From contig MHDQ01000026.1 in the NCBI GenBank assembly GCA_001803565.1, positions 1 to 15,831 of the forward strand: 15,831 nt of DNA, read 5' to 3'. Each line of letters opens with the position of its first letter. The stretch's first letter is position 1. Both the position numbers and the translations under genes were made by a program. This stretch comes from Nitrospinae bacterium RIFCSPLOWO2_12_FULL_45_22. GTDB taxonomy: Bacteria > 2-12-FULL-45-22. Positions 1,045 through 15,807 of the stretch are shown piece by piece. Below the pieces are notes generated by a model. The model worked only from the letters and a program-made list of their open reading frames with translations. It was not told the DNA's origin and ran no database searches.

Positions 1045-3663
1045 TTATCTGCCGTGCTTTACTCCAGCCTCTTCAACTGCGGCAATGATCTCTTTACACA
1101 CTTTCTGTAATTCACGAGATATACGACCGATTACTCTCTTATCCTGGGTGTAATATTGAATGATATATTTGAAAGGCTCAAGGAAGTCAAACTCTTCCTT
1201 ATACGGTGTCCTTGAGAGTTCATTGATGAACTCCTCTGCCTCTTTAAACCTCCTGAGTTTTAAAATATTTATTAAGAAGGTATAGAAAATAGAATGGATT
1301 TGTTTTAATATTTTAACCCTTGGAAGTGCTTCAAGTAGCTCATAGACAAGCCTCTTATAAGTCGTTTCTCTGTCTACCCTGAGCGAAAGCCAGGCCGCTG
1401 TAAGAAGGGTATCAATCATAGAGGGATAGTCAAGTATTGCTTTCTTCTTTATAATCTCCCAGGATGCAATGAACTGCTGGAGTGCCTCTTTAAGGTAATT
1501 TTCATTGTGCTTAAGTTCAGCCAACTCTAAGAGTGCAACTCCCCATTTAGAGAATGCCGAAAAATGATCGGGGTCCAATTCAAGCACCTTTTTGCATTTC
1601 TCGATTACCTCCCGAAATAGTTTTTCATCTCTCTTCAGGGTTGCGAATTCTAATAATGAGTCTCCCCATTTGCAAAAGGCTTCATAAAAATCAGGTTTTA
1701 ATTCCACTGCCATCTTGAATTTTTCAAAAGACTCCTGAAAGAGTCCCTCATCCTGCTTTAACTCGGCAAGTTCAGACAGTGCAATCCCCCAGCTATAGAA
1801 GCCTTCAGGATCATCAGGCTCTAATTCAACTACCTTTTCATATTTTTCAAAGGCTTCTCTGAAGAGTCCTTCATCCCGCTTTAATTTAGCAAGGTCTGAG
1901 AGTGCAATCCCCCAGTTGTTAAAAGCTCTAAAATAATCAGGTTTTAATTCCACTGCCCTTTTGTATTTTTCAAAGGCTTCCTGGAAGAGCCTCTCATCCT
2001 GCTTTAACTCAGCAAGGCGTAAAAGTGCGTTTCCCCAGTTATGGAAGGCTTCAGGAAAATCGGGCTTTAATTCCACTGCCCTTTTGTATTTTTCAAAGGC
2101 TTCTTGGAAGAGTCCCTCATCCTGCTTCAATCTGGCAAGGTCTGAGAGTGCAAGCCCCCAGTTATAGAAGGCCCCATAATCTTTAGGCTCGATTTCTGTA
2201 ATCCTTGAGAATTGTATTACTGAATCAGCAAATGCACCTTCTTCAGCTAAGGCTATTCCATAGAGGTTGAGTATATAAAGGCTATCCGGCTTCTTTCTTA
2301 AATATCTTTTAGATAGTTCAATTACCCGACGGAATTCTCGCTTCTCATATACCTCCTGAATCTCTCTTTCTGCTTTAATAATTCTTATTCTTTTCTTCAG
2401 CTTTAATGCAGCCTCGGTATATTCGAGCAATCTTGCATATTGTGGACGAGTATCCGCAGTATGAATGAGCATTTTGCGATATTCCCTCAATTGAGCCTCG
2501 GAGTACCAAAGACTGATAAACCGAATAAACATCTCAACCAATCCTCGGTCAGTGGTGGATAAATGCCAATAGCGATAGAGGTGCTCTTCTAAGTCATAGA
2601 GCGCGCCTATACCTTTCTCTTTTCTAACAAACCTTACAAATCCATTCTTCTCCAGTTCATTTAACTGGGCGGTGACGGTATTCGTAGGAATATGAAGCTT
2701 TTTTGATATCTGACCTGGAGTAAGAAGGAAGGGGCTTTCGGCAAAGGCGATGAGGATCTTTTCCTGCTGAGGGGAGAGATTCTCGGTCCTGGACTGAAAG
2801 TATGGGGTCAACTCCTCCAGGAGATGATAGAACAACCTCTCTATCTCCTCCAATCTCTCATACTCTAAGGCTATCTCATAAAGCATGAGGATAAGCCTGG
2901 GATTGCCACCAGTAAGGGTGGAAAGAACCATGAGTAGAGCCCGGTTTCTCTTTATTGTCTCTAAGAAATCCTGTCTCCCCTCAAGCTCGGCTCTCTTCAA
3001 CCAGAGACCCTGACAGTCATTATCTGAGAAATCTTCTAACTCCTCTATCCTAAAGAAGTTGTATAAGGCATGCTTGTGATCAATCAGTTGTTTAAAAACT
3101 GAGGTAGAGGTGCCGATGAGTAATAGGACATTATCATTCATTAGAAGGCTTCGTAACCAGCGCTCCTTGTAAGGATCTTTTATTTTTATGACCCTCTTTC
3201 CAAAGACCCTATCTAAGTTTTCTACTAAAAGGAGAAGCTTTCTTTTTCTTTTTATGGCCTGCCCGATTAAAAAAGCCCGTATCTTCTCTACTGCGTCGGT
3301 TTCTTTCTCACCTCTGATATCTTCAAGAATCTTATCCCATCCCTCTTCCTCTCCCTGAGCCAACTTGATTATCTTTACCATAAAATCCAGTAGAGAGATA
3401 ATTCCATACCCCTGCTCAGGAAACAAGATAGGTAGCCACTTCTTTCTAAACCCTTCCTCTTCCTTTATTCGATGATAGATGAAGGATATGAGATGGCTTT
3501 TGCCAATACCTCTTGGTCCTACCAATAACCAATGTTGATGGGTTTTTTTCTCTGCCTGTTCCTTTATGGAATTAAAGAGCAGATTTAATAATTCCTCCCT
3601 TCCTACGGTGGTCTCTTCAAGTTCCTTTAGGGAGAAATGGATCGGGTTATAGTGATAAATCAC
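1045..3663 (-). CDS. ATPase with winged helix and TPR repeats (STAND/MNS-like), third gene of RelA/SpoT-ATPase operon
   Basis: The 872-residue protein has a P-loop NTPase module. Walker A GPRGIGKSH is at about 49-57. A Walker B-like strand LLLLVENLD is at about 143-151, with E-N-L-D in place of the usual acidic pair. A winged-helix domain follows (about 297-360; QISKKLHIPTNTVTAQLNELEKNG region), then helical sequence. Six consecutive 41-residue TPR-like units (493-738) and a helical C-terminus complete it. This order (NTPase, winged helix, helical repeats) is that of STAND-type sensors, in which repeats bind a ligand and the NTPase relays the signal. I chose the GTG at 3663: it overlaps the upstream stop as GTGA and has AGAGGAGG eight bases ahead. 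An in-frame TTG at 3699 has only a badly spaced site. The ligand is unknown. Cytoplasmic. Confidence 0.8.
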   Translation of the reverse strand: MIYHYNPIHFSLKELEETTVGREELLNLLFNSIKEQAEKKTHQHWLLVGPRGIGKSHLISFIYHRIKEEEGFRKKWLPILFPEQGYGIISLLDFMVKIIKLAQGEEEGWDKILEDIRGEKETDAVEKIRAFLIGQAIKRKRKLLLLVENLDRVFGKRVIKIKDPYKERWLRSLLMNDNVLLLIGTSTSVFKQLIDHKHALYNFFRIEELEDFSDNDCQGLWLKRAELEGRQDFLETIKRNRALLMVLSTLTGGNPRLILMLYEIALEYERLEEIERLFYHLLEELTPYFQSRTENLSPQQEKILIAFAESPFLLTPGQISKKLHIPTNTVTAQLNELEKNGFVRFVRKEKGIGALYDLEEHLYRYWHLSTTDRGLVEMFIRFISLWYSEAQLREYRKMLIHTADTRPQYARLLEYTEAALKLKKRIRIIKAEREIQEVYEKREFRRVIELSKRYLRKKPDSLYILNLYGIALAEEGAFADSVIQFSRITEIEPKDYGAFYNWGLALSDLARLKQDEGLFQEAFEKYKRAVELKPDFPEAFHNWGNALLRLAELKQDERLFQEAFEKYKRAVELKPDYFRAFNNWGIALSDLAKLKRDEGLFREAFEKYEKVVELEPDDPEGFYSWGIALSELAELKQDEGLFQESFEKFKMAVELKPDFYEAFCKWGDSLLEFATLKRDEKLFREVIEKCKKVLELDPDHFSAFSKWGVALLELAELKHNENYLKEALQQFIASWEIIKKKAILDYPSMIDTLLTAAWLSLRVDRETTYKRLVYELLEALPRVKILKQIHSIFYTFLINILKLRRFKEAEEFINELSRTPYKEEFDFLEPFKYIIQYYTQDKRVIGRISRELQKVCKEIIAAVEEAGVKHGR
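1450..2187 (-). repeat. Six tandem 123-bp units encoding TPR-like repeats
   Basis: Six in-frame 123-bp units (41 residues each) begin on the minus strand at 2187, 2064, 1941, 1818, 1695 and 1572. Each starts with Pro-(Asp/Lys)-x and carries the pattern F-x-x-W-G-x-x-L, then L-K-x-(D/N)-E, then F-E-K-x-K-x-x-x-E-L in most units. The units nearest 1942-2187 are the most alike, and the last (1450-1572) has diverged. The period is longer than the canonical 34-residue TPR because of an extended loop (LAELKQDE-type). Recombination between units could change the copy number. Confidence 0.9.
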
Positions 3664-5117
3664 TCTTTTAGCCTCCTCTTGAATTGATATCGTTTCCAAT
3701 ACTCCCTGAGGAGAGGGGATGAGAAACGATAGGCATTATCTTTCTTTTCAAGATAAACGTCATACTCTAAATACCCGAGTAGTATTTCAATATCTTTGGC
3801 ATCTCTAAACTTTGAAAGGTAGATGTGTTGTAACTCTGCTATCCTGACCCCTTGAGGGGATTTAGAGAGTTCATCGAGTAAGACCTCAGCCTTCCTTGTT
3901 CGCTCCCCTCCATAGTGCCGCAAGATATGATGATAGAGATCATCCAGATATCGTCTACAGTTTGGGCCTAACAGTTGATTCTCATAGATATGAGGGATAT
4001 CTTTTACAGTAATAGACTTATATTTTCGGTAATATGAGATAATCTGACCAGTGAAGATCTGGAGAAAATAGGGGTAAGCCGGATGGATAGATTTCACTAT
4101 CTCTTCTATTATTTCTTTTTCTAAGTAAACTCCTTGTCCATAGAGGAGACCTTCAACAAGTAATTCAGCCTCTTCTTCCTTAAAGGGTGAGAGTTTGAGG
4201 CGATCAAAGTCAGCAAAATATCTCTGATTTATATTTTTATCCTCAATATATACCTCTATATCTATAGAGCCGGTCAGGATAAACCGTAAGTATTTTTCCC
4301 CCTCTCTCTTTCTAGCAAACCACTGAAGAAATTCCTCAATCTCCTTCCTTTTGAGTTTTTCAAAAAAATTGTCAAGCATATATGAAAACTCATCCATCAA
4401 GAACAATAATCGGCTCCTTCTGATCTCTTTAAAGGTCTCCTCAGCTTTACTTTGCCAGTTTATATTGGTCTTTCTGATTTCTTCTTCAATCTTATTCCTT
4501 TCTACCTCGTCCTTTGCCCTGACGGCTGCCGTACATCTGGCTGCAAAATCCAGAGGAGAGTAAACTTTCTCAAGGTCTATATGAATACAGCGATAGTCCT
4601 CTTTCGGATTATCACGAATAACATACAACAGACTCGTCTTTCCAAACCTTCGAGGAGCAGTTATGAGAAGGTTTTTTTCTTGCAGCCTCTGCCAGACCTC
4701 TTCAATAGTAGCCTCCCGATTGAAAAAATCATTTCCTGTTACCACCCCACCTGCATAATTTGATGGGAAAAAATTGCCTCGAGACAGTAGAAGATTCTTT
4801 ATCCCGATAAGAAATAGCTTATGTTTAAATTCCTGCTTACTTCTATCCCAAAAGATCCATATAGGGAAAGTCTCTATAGTGAACCCGTGAGTCTGTGGAT
4901 GTTTAAAAGGAATCTCTTGGAAATTGGCTACGTAATATTCTTTAATAAAGCCTTCTTCTCTGATACTATCATTAATCTTGGAAGTCTCTTGAGGTAGACA
5001 TTCTACAGCATCACTATCCTCTACTCCTCTAACCCAGAGGAATACAAATCCTTTAGGCTTCTTTTCCTTATCATAGATATCTATAAGGTGTCCTGTTCCA
5101 CTGAACTCTTTGTCCAT
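3660..5117 (-). CDS. AAA-like/archaeal-type P-loop ATPase with unrecognised N-terminal domain, second gene of operon
   Basis: The 485-residue protein has a central P-loop ATPase. N-R-E near 133-135 precedes Walker A APRRFGKTSL (154-163), Walker B LLFLMDE (237-243) and a sensor-like ILTGSID (280-286). The R-R-x-G-K-T-S form of Walker A and the C-terminal winged-helix-like ending (FSSPLLREYWKRY) are typical of the archaeal-ATPase/MNS group of STAND-like ATPases. Residues 1-115 form a mixed domain that I do not recognise, rich in aromatics and probably globular; it may sense something or contact the RelA/SpoT protein. The start is firm: ATG follows the upstream TAA without a gap, with AAGGAGAGG about seven bases ahead. 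The gene overlaps the next one by GTGA, so translation is probably coupled. No catalytic effector domain other than the ATPase is visible. Confidence 0.8.
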   Translation of the reverse strand: MDKEFSGTGHLIDIYDKEKKPKGFVFLWVRGVEDSDAVECLPQETSKINDSIREEGFIKEYYVANFQEIPFKHPQTHGFTIETFPIWIFWDRSKQEFKHKLFLIGIKNLLLSRGNFFPSNYAGGVVTGNDFFNREATIEEVWQRLQEKNLLITAPRRFGKTSLLYVIRDNPKEDYRCIHIDLEKVYSPLDFAARCTAAVRAKDEVERNKIEEEIRKTNINWQSKAEETFKEIRRSRLLFLMDEFSYMLDNFFEKLKRKEIEEFLQWFARKREGEKYLRFILTGSIDIEVYIEDKNINQRYFADFDRLKLSPFKEEEAELLVEGLLYGQGVYLEKEIIEEIVKSIHPAYPYFLQIFTGQIISYYRKYKSITVKDIPHIYENQLLGPNCRRYLDDLYHHILRHYGGERTRKAEVLLDELSKSPQGVRIAELQHIYLSKFRDAKDIEILLGYLEYDVYLEKKDNAYRFSSPLLREYWKRYQFKRRLKE

Positions 5118-5810
5118 TTATTTTCCTCTCCTTTTGTCTATTTCTTTTTTCAAACTGTCAAAGAATTCATCTGCAATATATAATAGTTCGCTCATGGCAA
5201 AGAATTTAATTTCTTCATCCAATTGGACTGACTTAGATCGTTTATATCTAAGACCATGCTCTTTCTTATCCCAACCATGCTGAAGCAGAGTCATAATCTG
5301 CACCTCAAATTTAATAGGAGATATTTCAAAGAAGAGATGGACTGCACGATGCCCCTTTGCTCTTTCTTTAGGGATAATATTGATATAGTCTCGTGGTTGT
5401 TCCAATAATTTGAAAGGAACACCGTCCTCTGTCTTCTCTAGCAGAAAGTCTTTTATTTTAGTCACCTCTGACAGGTAATTACATAGGATACGAAATCTGA
5501 GAATATCCTTCATCTCCCGATGGAAGTTCTGAAAACTATATTTTTTAGGCTCTTCCCCGATTTTTTTTACTATACTCTCCCAGCTTTTTATCTGTGTTGT
5601 CTCATGAGTATCCAACTCAGGATAGAGTTCCGTATCTAATTGATTTTGTACTCTATATTCATTCAGCATCCTGTTAAGTTCAGCAAACACAATTGAACAC
5701 AATCCTTTATGTGGTTGGGTTTTAGCCTCAATATCCCGCTGACATTTTTCAAGAGATAAATAACTACTACCTTTAATAAATTCTTCTAATCTTTTATCAA
5801 TGTATGCCAT
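5118..5810 (-). CDS. Divergent RelA/SpoT synthetase-domain protein (small alarmone-synthetase-like)
   Basis: The 230-residue protein carries the RelA/SpoT nucleotidyltransferase fold without an HD hydrolase domain, the size of a small alarmone synthetase. Recognisable blocks are IKSWESIVKKI (74-84; normally R-x-K...S...K), KDILRFR (101-107; normally D-x-x-G-x-R), GHRAVH (153-158; normally G-Y-x-S-x-H) and EVQI...HGWDKKEHGLRYK (169-190). The Mg ligands expected from the family (D102, E169) are kept. Three usual residues differ: Q73 for Arg, R105 for Gly and H154 for the guanine-stacking Tyr. It may make (p)ppGpp, a related nucleotide, or modify tRNA as some toxic SAS enzymes do; the sequence cannot decide. 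The ATG has AAGGG about seven bases ahead. It is first in an operon with two ATPases and lies behind a palindrome-controlled promoter. Confidence 0.8.
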   Translation of the reverse strand: MAYIDKRLEEFIKGSSYLSLEKCQRDIEAKTQPHKGLCSIVFAELNRMLNEYRVQNQLDTELYPELDTHETTQIKSWESIVKKIGEEPKKYSFQNFHREMKDILRFRILCNYLSEVTKIKDFLLEKTEDGVPFKLLEQPRDYINIIPKERAKGHRAVHLFFEISPIKFEVQIMTLLQHGWDKKEHGLRYKRSKSVQLDEEIKFFAMSELLYIADEFFDSLKKEIDKRRGK

Positions 5811-6236: not shown

Positions 6237-6263
6237 TAAATATACATCAAAGGGAGGACAGAC

Positions 6264-6869
6264 ATGGAGCTAGAAGTTATCCTCTATTCTGATTTTATCT
6301 GACCCTTCTGCTATATTGGGGAGCAGAACCTGGATCGGCTCCGCACGGAGTATAATATAAAGGTGGACTGGAAGGGTTTAGAGATCCATCCTGAAGTGCC
6401 CAAGCCAGGTTTAAGGCTCTCCCAACTCCTTGGTCCAGGGAGGATAGAGACGCTTTGGGCTAATGTAGACTATTTAGCCGCCAGCGTGGGCCTGAAGCTC
6501 AAGCGGCCTCAGCATCTACCTAATTCCCACTGGGCTTTAGAAGCGGCAGAATTTGCTAAAGAAAAAGGACGGCTGAAGGAGTTTCATGACCGGGTATTTA
6601 AGGCCTACTTTGAGGAAGGCGAAGATATCGGGTCGCTAGAAGCCCTGGCTGCTATTGGCCAGCGGTGTGGTCTGGACCCGGCCGAGTTAAAAGAATCCCT
6701 CCAGGCCGGACATTATTACCCTATCATCGAGCAATACCGACAAGAGGCCAAAGAGAGACAGGTTACCGGGGTACCTACTTACATCATAGGAAGTTACCCC
6801 CTTGTCGGGGCACAACCTTATGAAATCATGAAACGGGCCACTGAAAAAGCCCTGGAGCAAGCCAGCTAA
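6264..6869 (+). CDS. DsbA/FrnE-family thiol-disulfide oxidoreductase, probable selenoprotein (Sec13 at TGA 6300-6302)
   Basis: Reading from the ATG at 6264 (AGGGAGG ribosome site at 6251-6257) gives a 201-residue protein of the FrnE/2-hydroxychromene-2-carboxylate isomerase group of DsbA-like thioredoxin folds, if the in-frame TGA at codon 13 is read through. The start reads S9-D-F-I-TGA-P-F-C16-Y-I-G. Family members usually have S-D-x-x-C-P-W-C-x-x-G, so TGA sits exactly where the first catalytic cysteine belongs, giving U-P-F-C. The rest is intact: NSHWAL (about 87-92) and the cis-proline loop VTGVPTY (P171). The family normally has about 200-215 residues, which the long reading matches. 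A GTG at 6363 would remove the active site. TGA is a normal stop elsewhere here. Likely a redox enzyme, cytoplasmic since no signal peptide is seen. It is followed closely by the PHP gene. Confidence 0.8.
6303..6345 (+). promoter_or_regulatory. Candidate bacterial SECIS region downstream of the TGA codon
   Basis: Two mutually exclusive hairpins follow the TGA. The first has GGAGC (6320-6324) paired with GCTCC (6338-6342), extended by TG/CA across one mismatch. Its 13-base loop has G at the second position and starts 22 bases after the TGA, which fits the spacing I recall for bacterial SECIS elements. The second is a perfect 7-bp stem, TTCTGCT (6306-6312) with AGCAGAA (6322-6328), and a 9-base loop closer to the TGA than usual. 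Folding was judged by eye. Confidence 0.5.
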
Positions 6870-6888: not shown

Positions 6889-7419
6889 TTGACCAGACTA
6901 AAGCTCGACCTCCATACCCACTGCTTCGAGGCATTGAAGGCCAGACCCAGTAAAGATTCTGTCAAAGAAATCCTGGAAGCTATAAAAGCGAAAGGCCTGG
7001 ATGGGATAGCTATCACTGAGCATGAGAATAAATATTATGGATTTAAAGCCCGAGAAATCCAGCAGGCTTATTTCGGTAATGAGGTGTTACTTATACCGGG
7101 CCAGGAAGTGATAACCCCGGAAGCCTCCTTCATAGAACTTTATCTACCTGACAATTCAACTTTTTATACCTTCCGCTTTATTGCCCATCCCTACTATCAG
7201 TTTTCCGTCAAGGACTATACCGATATTCACGGTATTGAGATAGAGAATGATATGCATAATTACCATATTGATAAGGAACTGGTTGAATCGGTAGCCCAGG
7301 ATCACAATTTACTACTCTTACGCAATAGTGATGCCCACTATTTAGAGGATATAGGCAATTTTTATAATGAACTGGCCTGGGAAGACTTTTTTATCAAGAA
7401 CAATAAATTTATAGCATAG
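6889..7419 (+). CDS. PHP-domain metal-dependent phosphoesterase-like protein
   Basis: The 176-residue protein shows the PHP-domain motif order: DLHTH (7-11, metal ligands H9 and H11), ITEHEN (42-47), PGQEV (70-74, E73), a histidine at IAHPY (H100) and NSDAH (146-150). These are the expected ligands of a di- or trinuclear metal centre. It is shorter than many PHP phosphatases (about 220-280) but appears complete. Translation probably begins at TTG 6889: an in-frame TGA lies just upstream (6880-6882), no ATG or GTG precedes the conserved motif, and GGAAGAGG at 6871-6878 is suitably placed. It starts 19 bases after the oxidoreductase and is probably co-transcribed with it. Possible roles are phosphoesterase or nucleotide/phosphoprotein hydrolysis; the substrate is unknown. 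Confidence 0.8.
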
Positions 7420-11705: not shown

Positions 11706-13382
11706 ATGGAAAAGGCTTTAGCCGCGGTATTAACTAGAGAGATAAGGGCCCCGCGAGGAAAACACCTGGGCTGCAAAGGCTGGACCCAGGAAGCGGCTAT
11801 GCGTATGCTGATGAATAACCTGGACCCTGAGGTAGCAGAAAAGCCCCAGGAGCTTATTGTCTATGGTGGCTCAGGTAAGGCGGCCCGCAACTGGGAGGCA
11901 TATGAACAGATCGTCAAGTCCCTGCAAGCCCTGGAGAATAATGAGACCCTGTTGATTCAATCCGGTAAGGCCGTAGGTATCCTGAAGACCCATGGCCGGG
12001 CCCCCAGGGTAATAATAGCCAACTCCCTACTGGTGCCTAAATGGGCTACCCGGGACTATTTCCAGGAACTAGAAGCCCGCGGTCTCACCATGTTTGGTCA
12101 GATGACCGCTGGTAGCTGGATATATATCGGAACCCAGGGGATACTGCAGGGTACTTATGAGACCCTACGGGCCGCTGCAGAGCGGCATTTCGGTGGCAAC
12201 TTAAAAGGCAAGCTGGTGGTCACGGCTGGCTTAGGTGGTATGGGTGGTGCGCAGCCGCTGGCTATCACCTTCAACCAGGGTGTTTGCCTGGCCGCAGAAG
12301 TAGATCGAGAACGGATCATGCGGCGGCTACAGACCGGCTATTGTGATACCATGGCAGAAGACCTGCCCCGGGCAGTCAGTCTGGCCCGGCAATATACTGC
12401 TGAGAAAGAGGCCCATTCTATTGCCTACCTGGGCAATGCCGTAGACTTATTAGAATACCTGGTTAAAATGGATATTACTCCGGACTTGCTGACCGACCAG
12501 ACCGCTGCCCATGACCCGCTTAATGGCTATGTGCCGCATGGTATCCCATTTAATCAGGCTATAGCCTTACGCCGTAGCCATCCTAACCAATATATGCAGC
12601 GAGCCATGTCTTCTATAGCCGCCCATATGCGGGCCATGCTGGAACTGCAAAGGCGGGGTGCCGTTACCTTCGAGTACGGCAACAATCTCCGGGGTATGGC
12701 CTTAGAAGCCGGTGTTACTGAGGCATTTCTGGTACCCGGTTTTGTCCATGCCTATATCCGGCCCCTCTTCTGTCAGGGTAAAGGGCCTTTCCGCTGGGTT
12801 GCCCTGAGTGGCGACCCCCAGGATATCCATCGTACTGATAAAGCGGTAATGGAAACCTTCCCGGATAATAAAGGATTATCTGGTTGGCTGACCCTGGCCA
12901 GTAAAAAGGTTAAGTTCCAGGGTCTTCCCGCCCGGATATGCTGGCTGGGCTATGGCGAACGGGATAAGATCGGGCTCTTGTTTAATCAGATGGTAACTAA
13001 AGGCCAGTTGAAAGGCCCTATTGTCATTGGTCGGGACCATCTGGACTGTGGCTCCGTAGCATCTCCCAACCGTGAGACCGAGAAGATGCTGGATGGTAGT
13101 GATGCTATTGCCGATTGGCCTATCCTTAATGCGTTGATCAATGCGGTGAATGGGGCCAGTTGGGTATCAGTACACCATGGTGGTGGAGTAGGGATAGGCT
13201 ATTCTATCCATGCGGGTATGGTAGTAGTGGCGGATGGGAGCCGCGAAGCAGCCTGGCGCTTGAAGCGGGTATTGGTCTCTGACCCCGCCTCAGGCATCAT
13301 CCGCCATGCCGATGCCGGCTACCCCGAGGCTATAGCCACCGCCCAGCGCAAAAAGATAAAGCTCCCGGGCATCAACCTATAA
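11706..13382 (+). CDS. hutU: Urocanate hydratase
   Basis: The 558-residue protein matches urocanase in full length. It hydrates urocanate to 4-imidazolone-5-propionate with a tightly bound NAD, the second step of histidine degradation. It shows the N-terminal [20 protein letters not shown] block, the NAD-binding [10 protein letters not shown] region (175-184), and the family signature [10 protein letters not shown] (404-413) containing the essential cysteine (C412). Later come [17 protein letters not shown] and the glycine-rich [16 protein letters not shown]. No key residue is missing. The ATG has GAGG about five bases ahead. It follows the CDF gene closely and precedes hutI by 179 bases of repeat-containing DNA. 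Cytoplasmic dimer in known members. Confidence 0.97.
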
Positions 13383-13561
13383 TTGCAGTAGCACAATATC
13401 CTGCTTAAATGCGGAGGCGCAGGGAACACCAGATTGGGTTATTGGGTTATTGGGTTATTGGGTTATTGGGTTATTCAATACAGGAATGACCTAATCACCC
13501 AATAACGACCACGCCTCTGCGGTTCAATGGTCATTTTTCATAACTTATTGCGTACAGACCT
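13383..13561 (+). repeat. hutU-hutI gap with five tandem TTGGGTTA units
   Basis: Five perfect 8-bp units TTGGGTTA run from 13434 to 13473. ACCCAATAAC at 13497-13506 is complementary to the array and could form a hairpin with it. Outside lie GCGGAGGCG (13411-13419) and CGCCTCTGC (13512-13520), an imperfect inverted pair. No gene fits. The array may vary in copy number between strains. Confidence 0.8.
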
Positions 13562-14821
13562 ATGCCTCAACCGGTTGAGTTGATTATAAAGAATGCTGAC
13601 CAACTCCTTACCCTGGCTACGGCTACACCTGACAATCCCCTGGGGATAATAACTCAAGGTTCAGTTGCTATTGGCCGGGATCAGGTGGTATGGGTAGGAG
13701 CAGAAGCAAACCTGGCAAAAGAGGTGCTGGTTACTGAATCTACCAGGGTATTGGATGCCCAGGGTAAAGTAGTTATCCCCGGGCTGATAGATGCCCATAC
13801 CCATCTGATCTTTGCTGGCAGTAGGGCAGACGAGTTCGACCTGAGGAATATTGGCATCAGTTATCAAGAGATTATGGGGCGTGGTGGTGGAATCCTGGCT
13901 ACCGTAGCCGCTACTCGAAAAGCCAGCAAAGAAGAGCTGTATAGGCTGGGCGTGAGGCGCTTGAACCGGGCCTTGAGGTGGGGTACTACTACCTTAGAAG
14001 TTAAGAGCGGCTATGGCTTGAGTCTGGAGCACGAGCTAAAGATGCTAGACGTAATAAAGGAATTAAGCGCCCATCATCCAGTAGATCTCATACCTACCTT
14101 TTTGGGCGCCCACGCCATCCCGGAAGAATACAAAGGCCAACGAGAAAAATATATCCAGCTTATCTGCCAGGAGATGATACCCAGCATAGCCGAGAGGAAG
14201 CTGGCAATATTCTGTGATGTATTTTGTGAAAAAGGCGCCTTTACTTATGACGAAACGGAACAGATTTTACGGACTGGCATAAAATATGGTCTAAAGGCTA
14301 AAGTCCATGCTGATGAATTCTCTAATAGTGGCGGCGCCATCCTGGCAGCAGACTTAGGGGCCGTTTCCGCCGATCACTTACTCTCTGCCCCGGCGGAGGC
14401 ATTAGCTGCCATGCGGCTCCGGGGGGTCGCAGCGGTATTATTGCCCGGTACTTCTTTTGTCCTGGGACTGAAGCGTTATGGGCCAGCCCGCAGCATATTA
14501 GCCCAGGGATTAACCCTGGCCTTAGCTACTGATTTCAATCCCGGCTCCTGCTTCACGCAGTCCCTCCCACTCATTATGTCCATTGCCTGCACCCAGATGC
14601 ATATGACGGTAGCAGAGGCAGTCCTGGCCTGTACTAGCGGGTCGGCTAAGGCTTTAGCGCTACCGGATAAATATGGTAAATTGGCGCCTGGAAGTCCGGC
14701 AGACCTCCTGATCCTGGATATCACTGATTATCGCTTCCTGGCCTATCAAATGGGAGAAAACCCGGTAGAGACAGTGATCAAAGAAGGCCGAATAGTTATA
14801 GAAAACAGACATTTAGTATGA
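13562..14821 (+). CDS. hutI: Imidazolonepropionase
   Basis: The 419-residue amidohydrolase-superfamily enzyme opens 4-imidazolone-5-propionate to N-formimidoyl-L-glutamate, the third step of histidine breakdown. Metal-binding residues expected for the family are present: H79 and H81 (DAHTH), H249 (VHADEF), H272 (ADHLL) and D324 (ATDFNPGSC). The FAGSRADEFDLRNIG stretch after the HxH and a GGGILATV segment are typical. The length is normal. The proposed ATG has no good Shine-Dalgarno sequence, although the N-terminus (VELIIKNADQLLTLA) aligns with family starts. It overlaps hutG by ATGA, implying translational coupling. Likely binds zinc or iron; cytoplasmic. Confidence 0.96.
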   Translation: MPQPVELIIKNADQLLTLATATPDNPLGIITQGSVAIGRDQVVWVGAEANLAKEVLVTESTRVLDAQGKVVIPGLIDAHTHLIFAGSRADEFDLRNIGISYQEIMGRGGGILATVAATRKASKEELYRLGVRRLNRALRWGTTTLEVKSGYGLSLEHELKMLDVIKELSAHHPVDLIPTFLGAHAIPEEYKGQREKYIQLICQEMIPSIAERKLAIFCDVFCEKGAFTYDETEQILRTGIKYGLKAKVHADEFSNSGGAILAADLGAVSADHLLSAPAEALAAMRLRGVAAVLLPGTSFVLGLKRYGPARSILAQGLTLALATDFNPGSCFTQSLPLIMSIACTQMHMTVAEAVLACTSGSAKALALPDKYGKLAPGSPADLLILDITDYRFLAYQMGENPVETVIKEGRIVIENRHLV

Positions 14822-15807
14822 AAAAAGGACTAGCGTCTCTAATGACCCAGCCAGACCCAGGGGCGTTTTATAGCTCCGGTGATACTCAAGATATTCGCCT
14901 GGGAGACCTGGTAAAAAAAGATATTTCCTGGGAAGAGGATTTCCCCACCAATACCATAGCCCTTATTGGTTTTCCTTTAGACGAGGGCATTGAGCGGATC
15001 GGCGGTAGGATCGGTGCCGCCCGGGGGCCGACCGAGATCAGAACGGCCCTTTATCGCTTGACCAGCGGGTGTCGCCATCCACTTAATAAGGTAACTTTGC
15101 TGGATTTAGGAGACCTGATCCCTCAGAATGACCTGGAAACCTCCCATGAGCGGCTGGCCGATATTGTGGCCATCTGGATAAAAAAGGGGGCATTACCCAT
15201 TGTCCTTGGCGGTAGTCATGATCTGAGCTTCGGCTCAGTCAGTGGCTTGATCCAGACAATACCTGCTCTTGAACATATCGGCCTGATAAATATAGATAGC
15301 CATCTCGATCTACGCTCATCGGATAAAGGGATCAATAGTGGCACTGCCTTTTATCGCTTATTAGAGAGATGGCCAGAGCAATTATCTGGCACAGGCATTA
15401 TTGAATATGCAGCACACGAACAGTGTAACTCTTCCTTTCATTATCAATACGCCTTAGAAAAAAGAGTGAAGGTATATTTCTTAGATGAATTACGCACCAA
15501 CCTGGATGGCCCAGTAGGATTCTTCCCGCAGGTCCTGCGTCTGGCAGGTATGGATGTAGCGGCAGTAGCCCTTAGTATAGATATAGACGTATGCCAGCGG
15601 GCTTATGCGCCAGGCGCCAGCGCACCACAAACCGATGGGCTAACGGGTTCTGAAATCCTTCAGATAAGTTTCCTGGCAGGCAAAGAGAGAAAAGTTAAGC
15701 TCCTGGATCTCTGTGAAGTCAGCCCACCCCTGGATATTGCTGGTAAGACCATTGCCCTGGCTGCCCAGATCATCTTCTGGTTCTTACAAGGATTAACGTT
15801 AAGATGA
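14818..15807 (+). CDS. hutG: Formimidoylglutamase, arginase family
   Basis: The 329-residue protein is a ureohydrolase of the arginase/agmatinase family. In this position it is best read as formimidoylglutamase, giving L-glutamate and formamide. The binuclear manganese ligands are all present: H134 (GGSHD), D160, H162 and D164 (NIDSHLDLR), and D255 and D257 (SIDIDVC). RGP near 69-71 (AARGPTEIR) also fits. The usual D-x-D-x-x-D-P is altered to DIDVCQRAYAPG, as seen in HutG-type members. The ATG overlaps the hutI stop. Agmatinase is a less likely alternative given the hutU-hutI context. It would complete conversion of urocanate to glutamate without a separate formimidoylglutamate deiminase. Confidence 0.9.
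   Translation: MKKGLASLMTQPDPGAFYSSGDTQDIRLGDLVKKDISWEEDFPTNTIALIGFPLDEGIERIGGRIGAARGPTEIRTALYRLTSGCRHPLNKVTLLDLGDLIPQNDLETSHERLADIVAIWIKKGALPIVLGGSHDLSFGSVSGLIQTIPALEHIGLINIDSHLDLRSSDKGINSGTAFYRLLERWPEQLSGTGIIEYAAHEQCNSSFHYQYALEKRVKVYFLDELRTNLDGPVGFFPQVLRLAGMDVAAVALSIDIDVCQRAYAPGASAPQTDGLTGSEILQISFLAGKERKVKLLDLCEVSPPLDIAGKTIALAAQIIFWFLQGLTLR

Follow-up and report, generated by a model that had tools for sequence, protein, structure and literature searches.

A predicted FrnE-like selenoprotein gene with an in-frame UGA at the catalytic cysteine codon in a Nitrospinae genome

The window analyzed here, 15,831 nt in length, is the whole of contig C26 of a fragmented assembly (3.67 Mb in 321 contigs, about 85% complete), and it holds a frame of 201 codons with a single TGA at codon 13 (Table 1). 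The locus raises the question of whether this UGA is read as selenocysteine (Sec) or reflects a defect of the sequence, a misplaced gene start or a changed genetic code. A selenium-containing enzyme, encoded by a gene with UGA at the site of the reactive cysteine, is the most likely answer, because the genome carries the full selenocysteine machinery. More exactly, the frame would encode an FrnE-like oxidoreductase with Sec as its nucleophile, the UGA being read by means of a downstream hairpin and the Sel machinery, and we give this reading a probability of about 0.93.

Table 1. Positions of the predicted selenoprotein gene, its elements and the selD gene of the same genome (window coordinates unless a contig is named).
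Feature	Position	Strand	Remarks
Ribosome site, Shine-Dalgarno-like GGGAGG	6252-6257	+	6-nt gap to ATG 6264; read from the sequence
FrnE/DsbA-like selenoprotein gene (predicted), 201 aa	6264-6869	+	Start ATG 6264; codon 13 is UGA, predicted Sec; stop TAA 6867-6869
In-frame UGA, predicted Sec13	6300-6302	+	Opens U-P-F-C; invariant Cys column; also UGA in seven genomes besides this one
Resolving cysteine Cys16 of U-x-x-C	6309-6311	+	TGC codon; invariant column
SECIS-like hairpin	6317-6345	+	Core GGAGC-A-GA[ACCUGGA]UC-G-GCUCC at 6320-6342; loop 6328-6334; 25 nt from UGA to loop
Alternative hairpin GCUCC[GCAC]GGAGU	6338-6351	+	Mutually exclusive with the 6317-6345 hairpin; G-first loop, 40 nt from UGA
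Pro171 codon of T-G-V-P-T	6774-6776	+	Invariant column (alignment of 33 relatives)
selD (L018)	C19:5853-6779	minus	UGA in SHGGG-U-ACK; canonical bSECIS CGCAG-GUG-CUGCG, 33 nt spacing

The sequence-only reading of this DNA had described a frame that opens behind a ribosome site, is broken once by TGA and continues as intact family sequence. The sequence and its translation agreed on the start and on the one TGA. The read-through protein matched the Pfam family DSBA (PF01323) with 117.2 bits against a cut-off of 25.6, and the match extended over residues 5-192, so the homology is unbroken across the TGA. Only six columns were invariant in an alignment of 33 relatives (D10, C13, P14, C16, P43, and P171), and column 13 was occupied by Cys or Sec throughout. 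The TGA corresponds to the N-terminal residue of C-P-x-C, the active site in DsbA/FrnE-like proteins, and yields the UxxC motif U13-P-F-C16, as expected if it replaces the first catalytic cysteine.

The ORF listing also showed that standard gene calling would cut the gene back to GTG 6363, with loss of the active site, as had been predicted. The expressed product might then be this short ORF of 168 aa, with the upstream part left untranslated, which is what a mechanical gene caller would choose. However, a strong ribosome site precedes ATG 6264, and the residues encoded before GTG 6363 are as conserved as the rest, with the active-site columns invariant. We consider the short product very improbable.

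The UGA could also be an error of sequencing or assembly, or a nonsense mutation of recent date (TGC or TGT to TGA), and the locus would then hold an ordinary Cys-type FrnE or a young pseudogene. A single base change turns either Cys codon into TGA, the contig comes from a draft assembly, and by identity the window protein is nearest to Cys forms, the highest value (~40%) belonging to sequences of Binatota and of unplaced proteobacterial MAGs. On the other hand, cysteine positions make up 3 of the 201 codons (13, 16, and 134), and a random stop would therefore be expected at the catalytic Cys only about once in 200 cases, which agrees with the earlier argument that chance would hardly pick this codon. 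The 201 codons showed no other disruption. Moreover, the homologues, whose alignment had been proposed as a check, had Cys at codon 13, except for those of seven other genomes, which had UGA there. The motifs of these Sec forms were SDFV-U-PFC (L025), SDYV-U-PWC (L027, L028, and L029), SDFT-U-PYC (L032), and DYL-U-PWC (L041 and L043). A selA gene scored over the cut-off in all seven Sec-form genomes, whereas the Cys-form genomes had one in 4 of 11 cases (Fisher p = 0.013), and the recurrence of UGA in genomes with selA is difficult to reconcile with an error.

Among the relatives, no close UGA orthologue of the window protein was found, the best having 36% identity, and no additional UGA forms appeared when the search was widened to the phyla of genomes G151 and G025. 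In a tree with 71 relatives, the window protein stood on a poorly resolved branch, and the eight Sec forms needed ~4 state changes (4-5 in the bootstrap). A tree with all Sec forms in one clade was not rejected (p-AU 0.21), so a repeated origin of Sec is possible rather than shown. L027, L028, and L029 formed a tight Sec-form group (SDYV-U-PWCYFST), and their hairpins had G-containing loops at 20-21 nt from the UGA.

All four genes of the Sec pathway, which the sequence-only reading had named as decisive, were present in the genome itself. selA (524 bits) and the adjoining selB (372 bits) lie on contig C264, the tRNA-Sec gene selC (75 bits; anticodon tca by ARAGORN, i.e., UCA) lies on C247, and selD (401 bits) lies on C19. 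The selD gene has an in-frame UGA of its own at the classical place, and with its canonical bSECIS it makes a total of two or more selenoproteins probable for this genome. The tetranucleotide composition of the window correlated with that of the other loci of the bin at r = 0.93, compared to 0.77 at most, and mostly far less, for loci of other genomes. This match makes it plausible that the sel genes and the 6264-6869 gene belong to one organism. With a complete machinery and a second UGA gene at hand, an error or mutation at codon 13 becomes improbable. An in-frame TGA alone would also be compatible with an organism in which UGA has a general sense meaning, e.g., Trp or Gly. Yet translation table 11 leaves the remaining genes of the window open, the relatives have Cys at column 13 and neither Trp nor Gly, and the genome combines a complete Sec system with a selD UGA at the classical Sec position. 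In addition, no TGA was found inside the molybdopterin-oxidoreductase domains searched in this genome, and general reassignment is accordingly the least probable explanation, close to negligible. A search of the molybdopterin-oxidoreductase and FlpD domains of the genome revealed no further selenoprotein.

A Sec codon in bacteria would be expected to have a SECIS element behind it, and the region after the UGA was folded from +10 to +52; the first ~10 nt were left out as they would lie under the ribosome. The fold obtained was UG-G-GGAGC-A-GA[ACCUGGA]UC-G-GCUCC-G-CA, which begins ~17 nt after the UGA and has an energy of -11.9 kcal/mol with flanks and -7.4 for the core alone. Of 2000 synonymous recodings drawn with the codon usage of the window, 1% folded as well, and the z-score of the window against a base-composition null (-3.5) was the lowest among 74 homologues. 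Sec forms folded better than Cys forms, with p = 0.011, or 0.035 without the window, both values being uncorrected for the kinship of the sequences. A hairpin at +4 to +26, obtained by folding directly from the UGA, was set aside, as a ribosome with the UGA in its A site would cover it.

The hairpin was then compared with the bacterial SECIS rule (stem of 4-16 bp; loop of 3-9 nt with a G among the first two positions; spacing of 16-37 nt to the UGA; MFE of -7.5 or lower). Stem, loop length, spacing and energy fit this rule, while the G position does not: the loop ACCUGGA has no G in its first two positions and carries GG at positions 5-6. The alternative hairpin fits in its G position, and its distance of 40 nt is just outside the range. 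Canonical elements were seen in several other Sec forms, e.g., GCAGCCU[GGUC]AGGCUGC in L025 and GGCCACC[GUG]GGUGGCU in L032. The canonical rule was also passed by 16 of 67 Cys forms at -7.5 kcal/mol and therefore carries little weight alone; as a discriminator the G-first rule was rejected, since it did not separate Sec and Cys forms. An Rfam search of the UGA region at a relaxed threshold gave no match. Thus, the expectation of a SECIS after the UGA held as far as a stable hairpin at SECIS distance is concerned, while its loop is not fully at the published consensus. The element is supported but not proven; position and stability are in its favor, and it is a candidate only. A tentative and rather doubtful extension is that the SelB of this lineage accepts a late GG in a 7-nt loop or a G-first loop at 40 nt, which would extend the bacterial SECIS rule, and that Sec arose more than once within the FrnE-like proteins.

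An AlphaFold2 model of the protein (pLDDT 96.7, pTM 0.92) placed the UxxC motif at the start of helix 14-29. The nearest solved structure by sequence was Deinococcus FrnE (E 2.4e-19), which also gave the best fold matches in the PDB (TM 0.87-0.90), and Streptomyces DsbA-like SCO1869 was among the nearest solved structures as well. No signal peptide was evident in the window protein, which suggests a cytoplasmic role like that of FrnE. We take Pro171 to be the predicted cis-proline that faces the active site in the thioredoxin fold, and we assume the usual chemistry of the thioredoxin superfamily, with Sec13 attacking and Cys16 resolving. The product would accordingly be a cytoplasmic FrnE-like thiol-disulfide oxidoreductase of the DsbA fold with Sec13 of Sec13-Pro-Phe-Cys16 as nucleophile. 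For its synthesis, tRNA-Sec would be charged by SelA with selenophosphate from SelD, and SelB, given the hairpin shortly after the UGA, would deliver the Sec-tRNA to the ribosome, so that this codon would be decoded as Sec. From its place at the N-terminus of helix 1, opposite cis-Pro171, Sec13 may then attack or exchange disulfides, and the selenenylsulfide would be resolved by Cys16. Sec insertion itself, the hairpin used by SelB, the redox direction and the substrate are what we infer in this scheme.

COG2761 is the FrnE family. DsbA-like UxxC selenoproteins were reported as nine COG2761 sequences from the Sargasso Sea in 2005 (PMC1088965), in sequenced genomes in 2006 (PMC1794560), and as 63 sequences of "DsbA 1" (pfam01323) in the GOS survey of 2008 (PMC2398784); a 2026 review lists a "DsbA-like protein form 1" (PMC13188914). 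The window protein shares with this family the PF01323 fold, a UxxC motif with N-terminal Sec, widespread Cys homologues and a bacterial host with SelABCD (PMC1088965, PMC2398784, PMC13188914), and it differs in a hairpin loop that departs from the usual G-first apical loop. It was placed there by domain and motif. Deinococcus radiodurans FrnE (PDB 5cnw and others) has the active site CPWC where the window protein has UPFC, with Cys instead of Sec, and is longer. Besides codon 13, the window protein has only Cys16 and Cys134 and lacks a second cysteine pair. In Deinococcus FrnE, such a pair is present as a further C-x4-C motif, of which C239 is a part. The window protein was therefore filed as FrnE-like and not as a Deinococcus-type FrnE. 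The 2-hydroxychromene-2-carboxylate isomerases and kappa-class GSTs belong to the same DsbA-fold superfamily and matched more weakly (E 2e-6 at best, TM 0.78-0.81); these enzymes are not known to have a CxxC redox pair. The DsbG-like selenoprotein (NF041057) is likewise a thioredoxin-like UxxC protein, and its weak C-terminal similarity of 39 bits lies far below the cut-off of 190 bits; the NF041057 family consists of lipoproteins, unlike the window protein.

Shortly after the stop of the selenoprotein gene, a PHP-domain protein begins with TTG (6889-7419) and is possibly co-transcribed with it. Three adjoining genes occupy 1045-5810 on the minus strand and encode a small RelA/SpoT-domain protein, with a weak match to the PADLOC candidate PDC-S33, a STAND-like AAA NTPase, and a protein with AAA_16, winged-helix and TPR domains; this trio possibly serves (p)ppGpp-linked defence or signalling. 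At 11706-15807, likely histidine-degradation genes were found, namely a urocanase, an imidazolonepropionase-like amidohydrolase and an arginase-family formiminoglutamase candidate.

Taken together, the initial proposal of a probable UxxC selenoprotein was strengthened by the sel genes, the seven UGA relatives and the stable hairpin, and the product itself is a prediction. DsbA-like UxxC selenoproteins have been known since 2005, and what is new here is a fairly divergent member from a thinly sampled lineage. The result corrects the annotation, in which a start at GTG 6363 would delete the active site, and makes a well-supported divergent addition to the DsbA-like selenoprotein family. It also provides a mildly unusual SECIS candidate. 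Since the selD of the same genome has the canonical GUG loop and the 6264-6869 gene does not, the two offer a test case for how strictly the loop rule of the bacterial SECIS applies.
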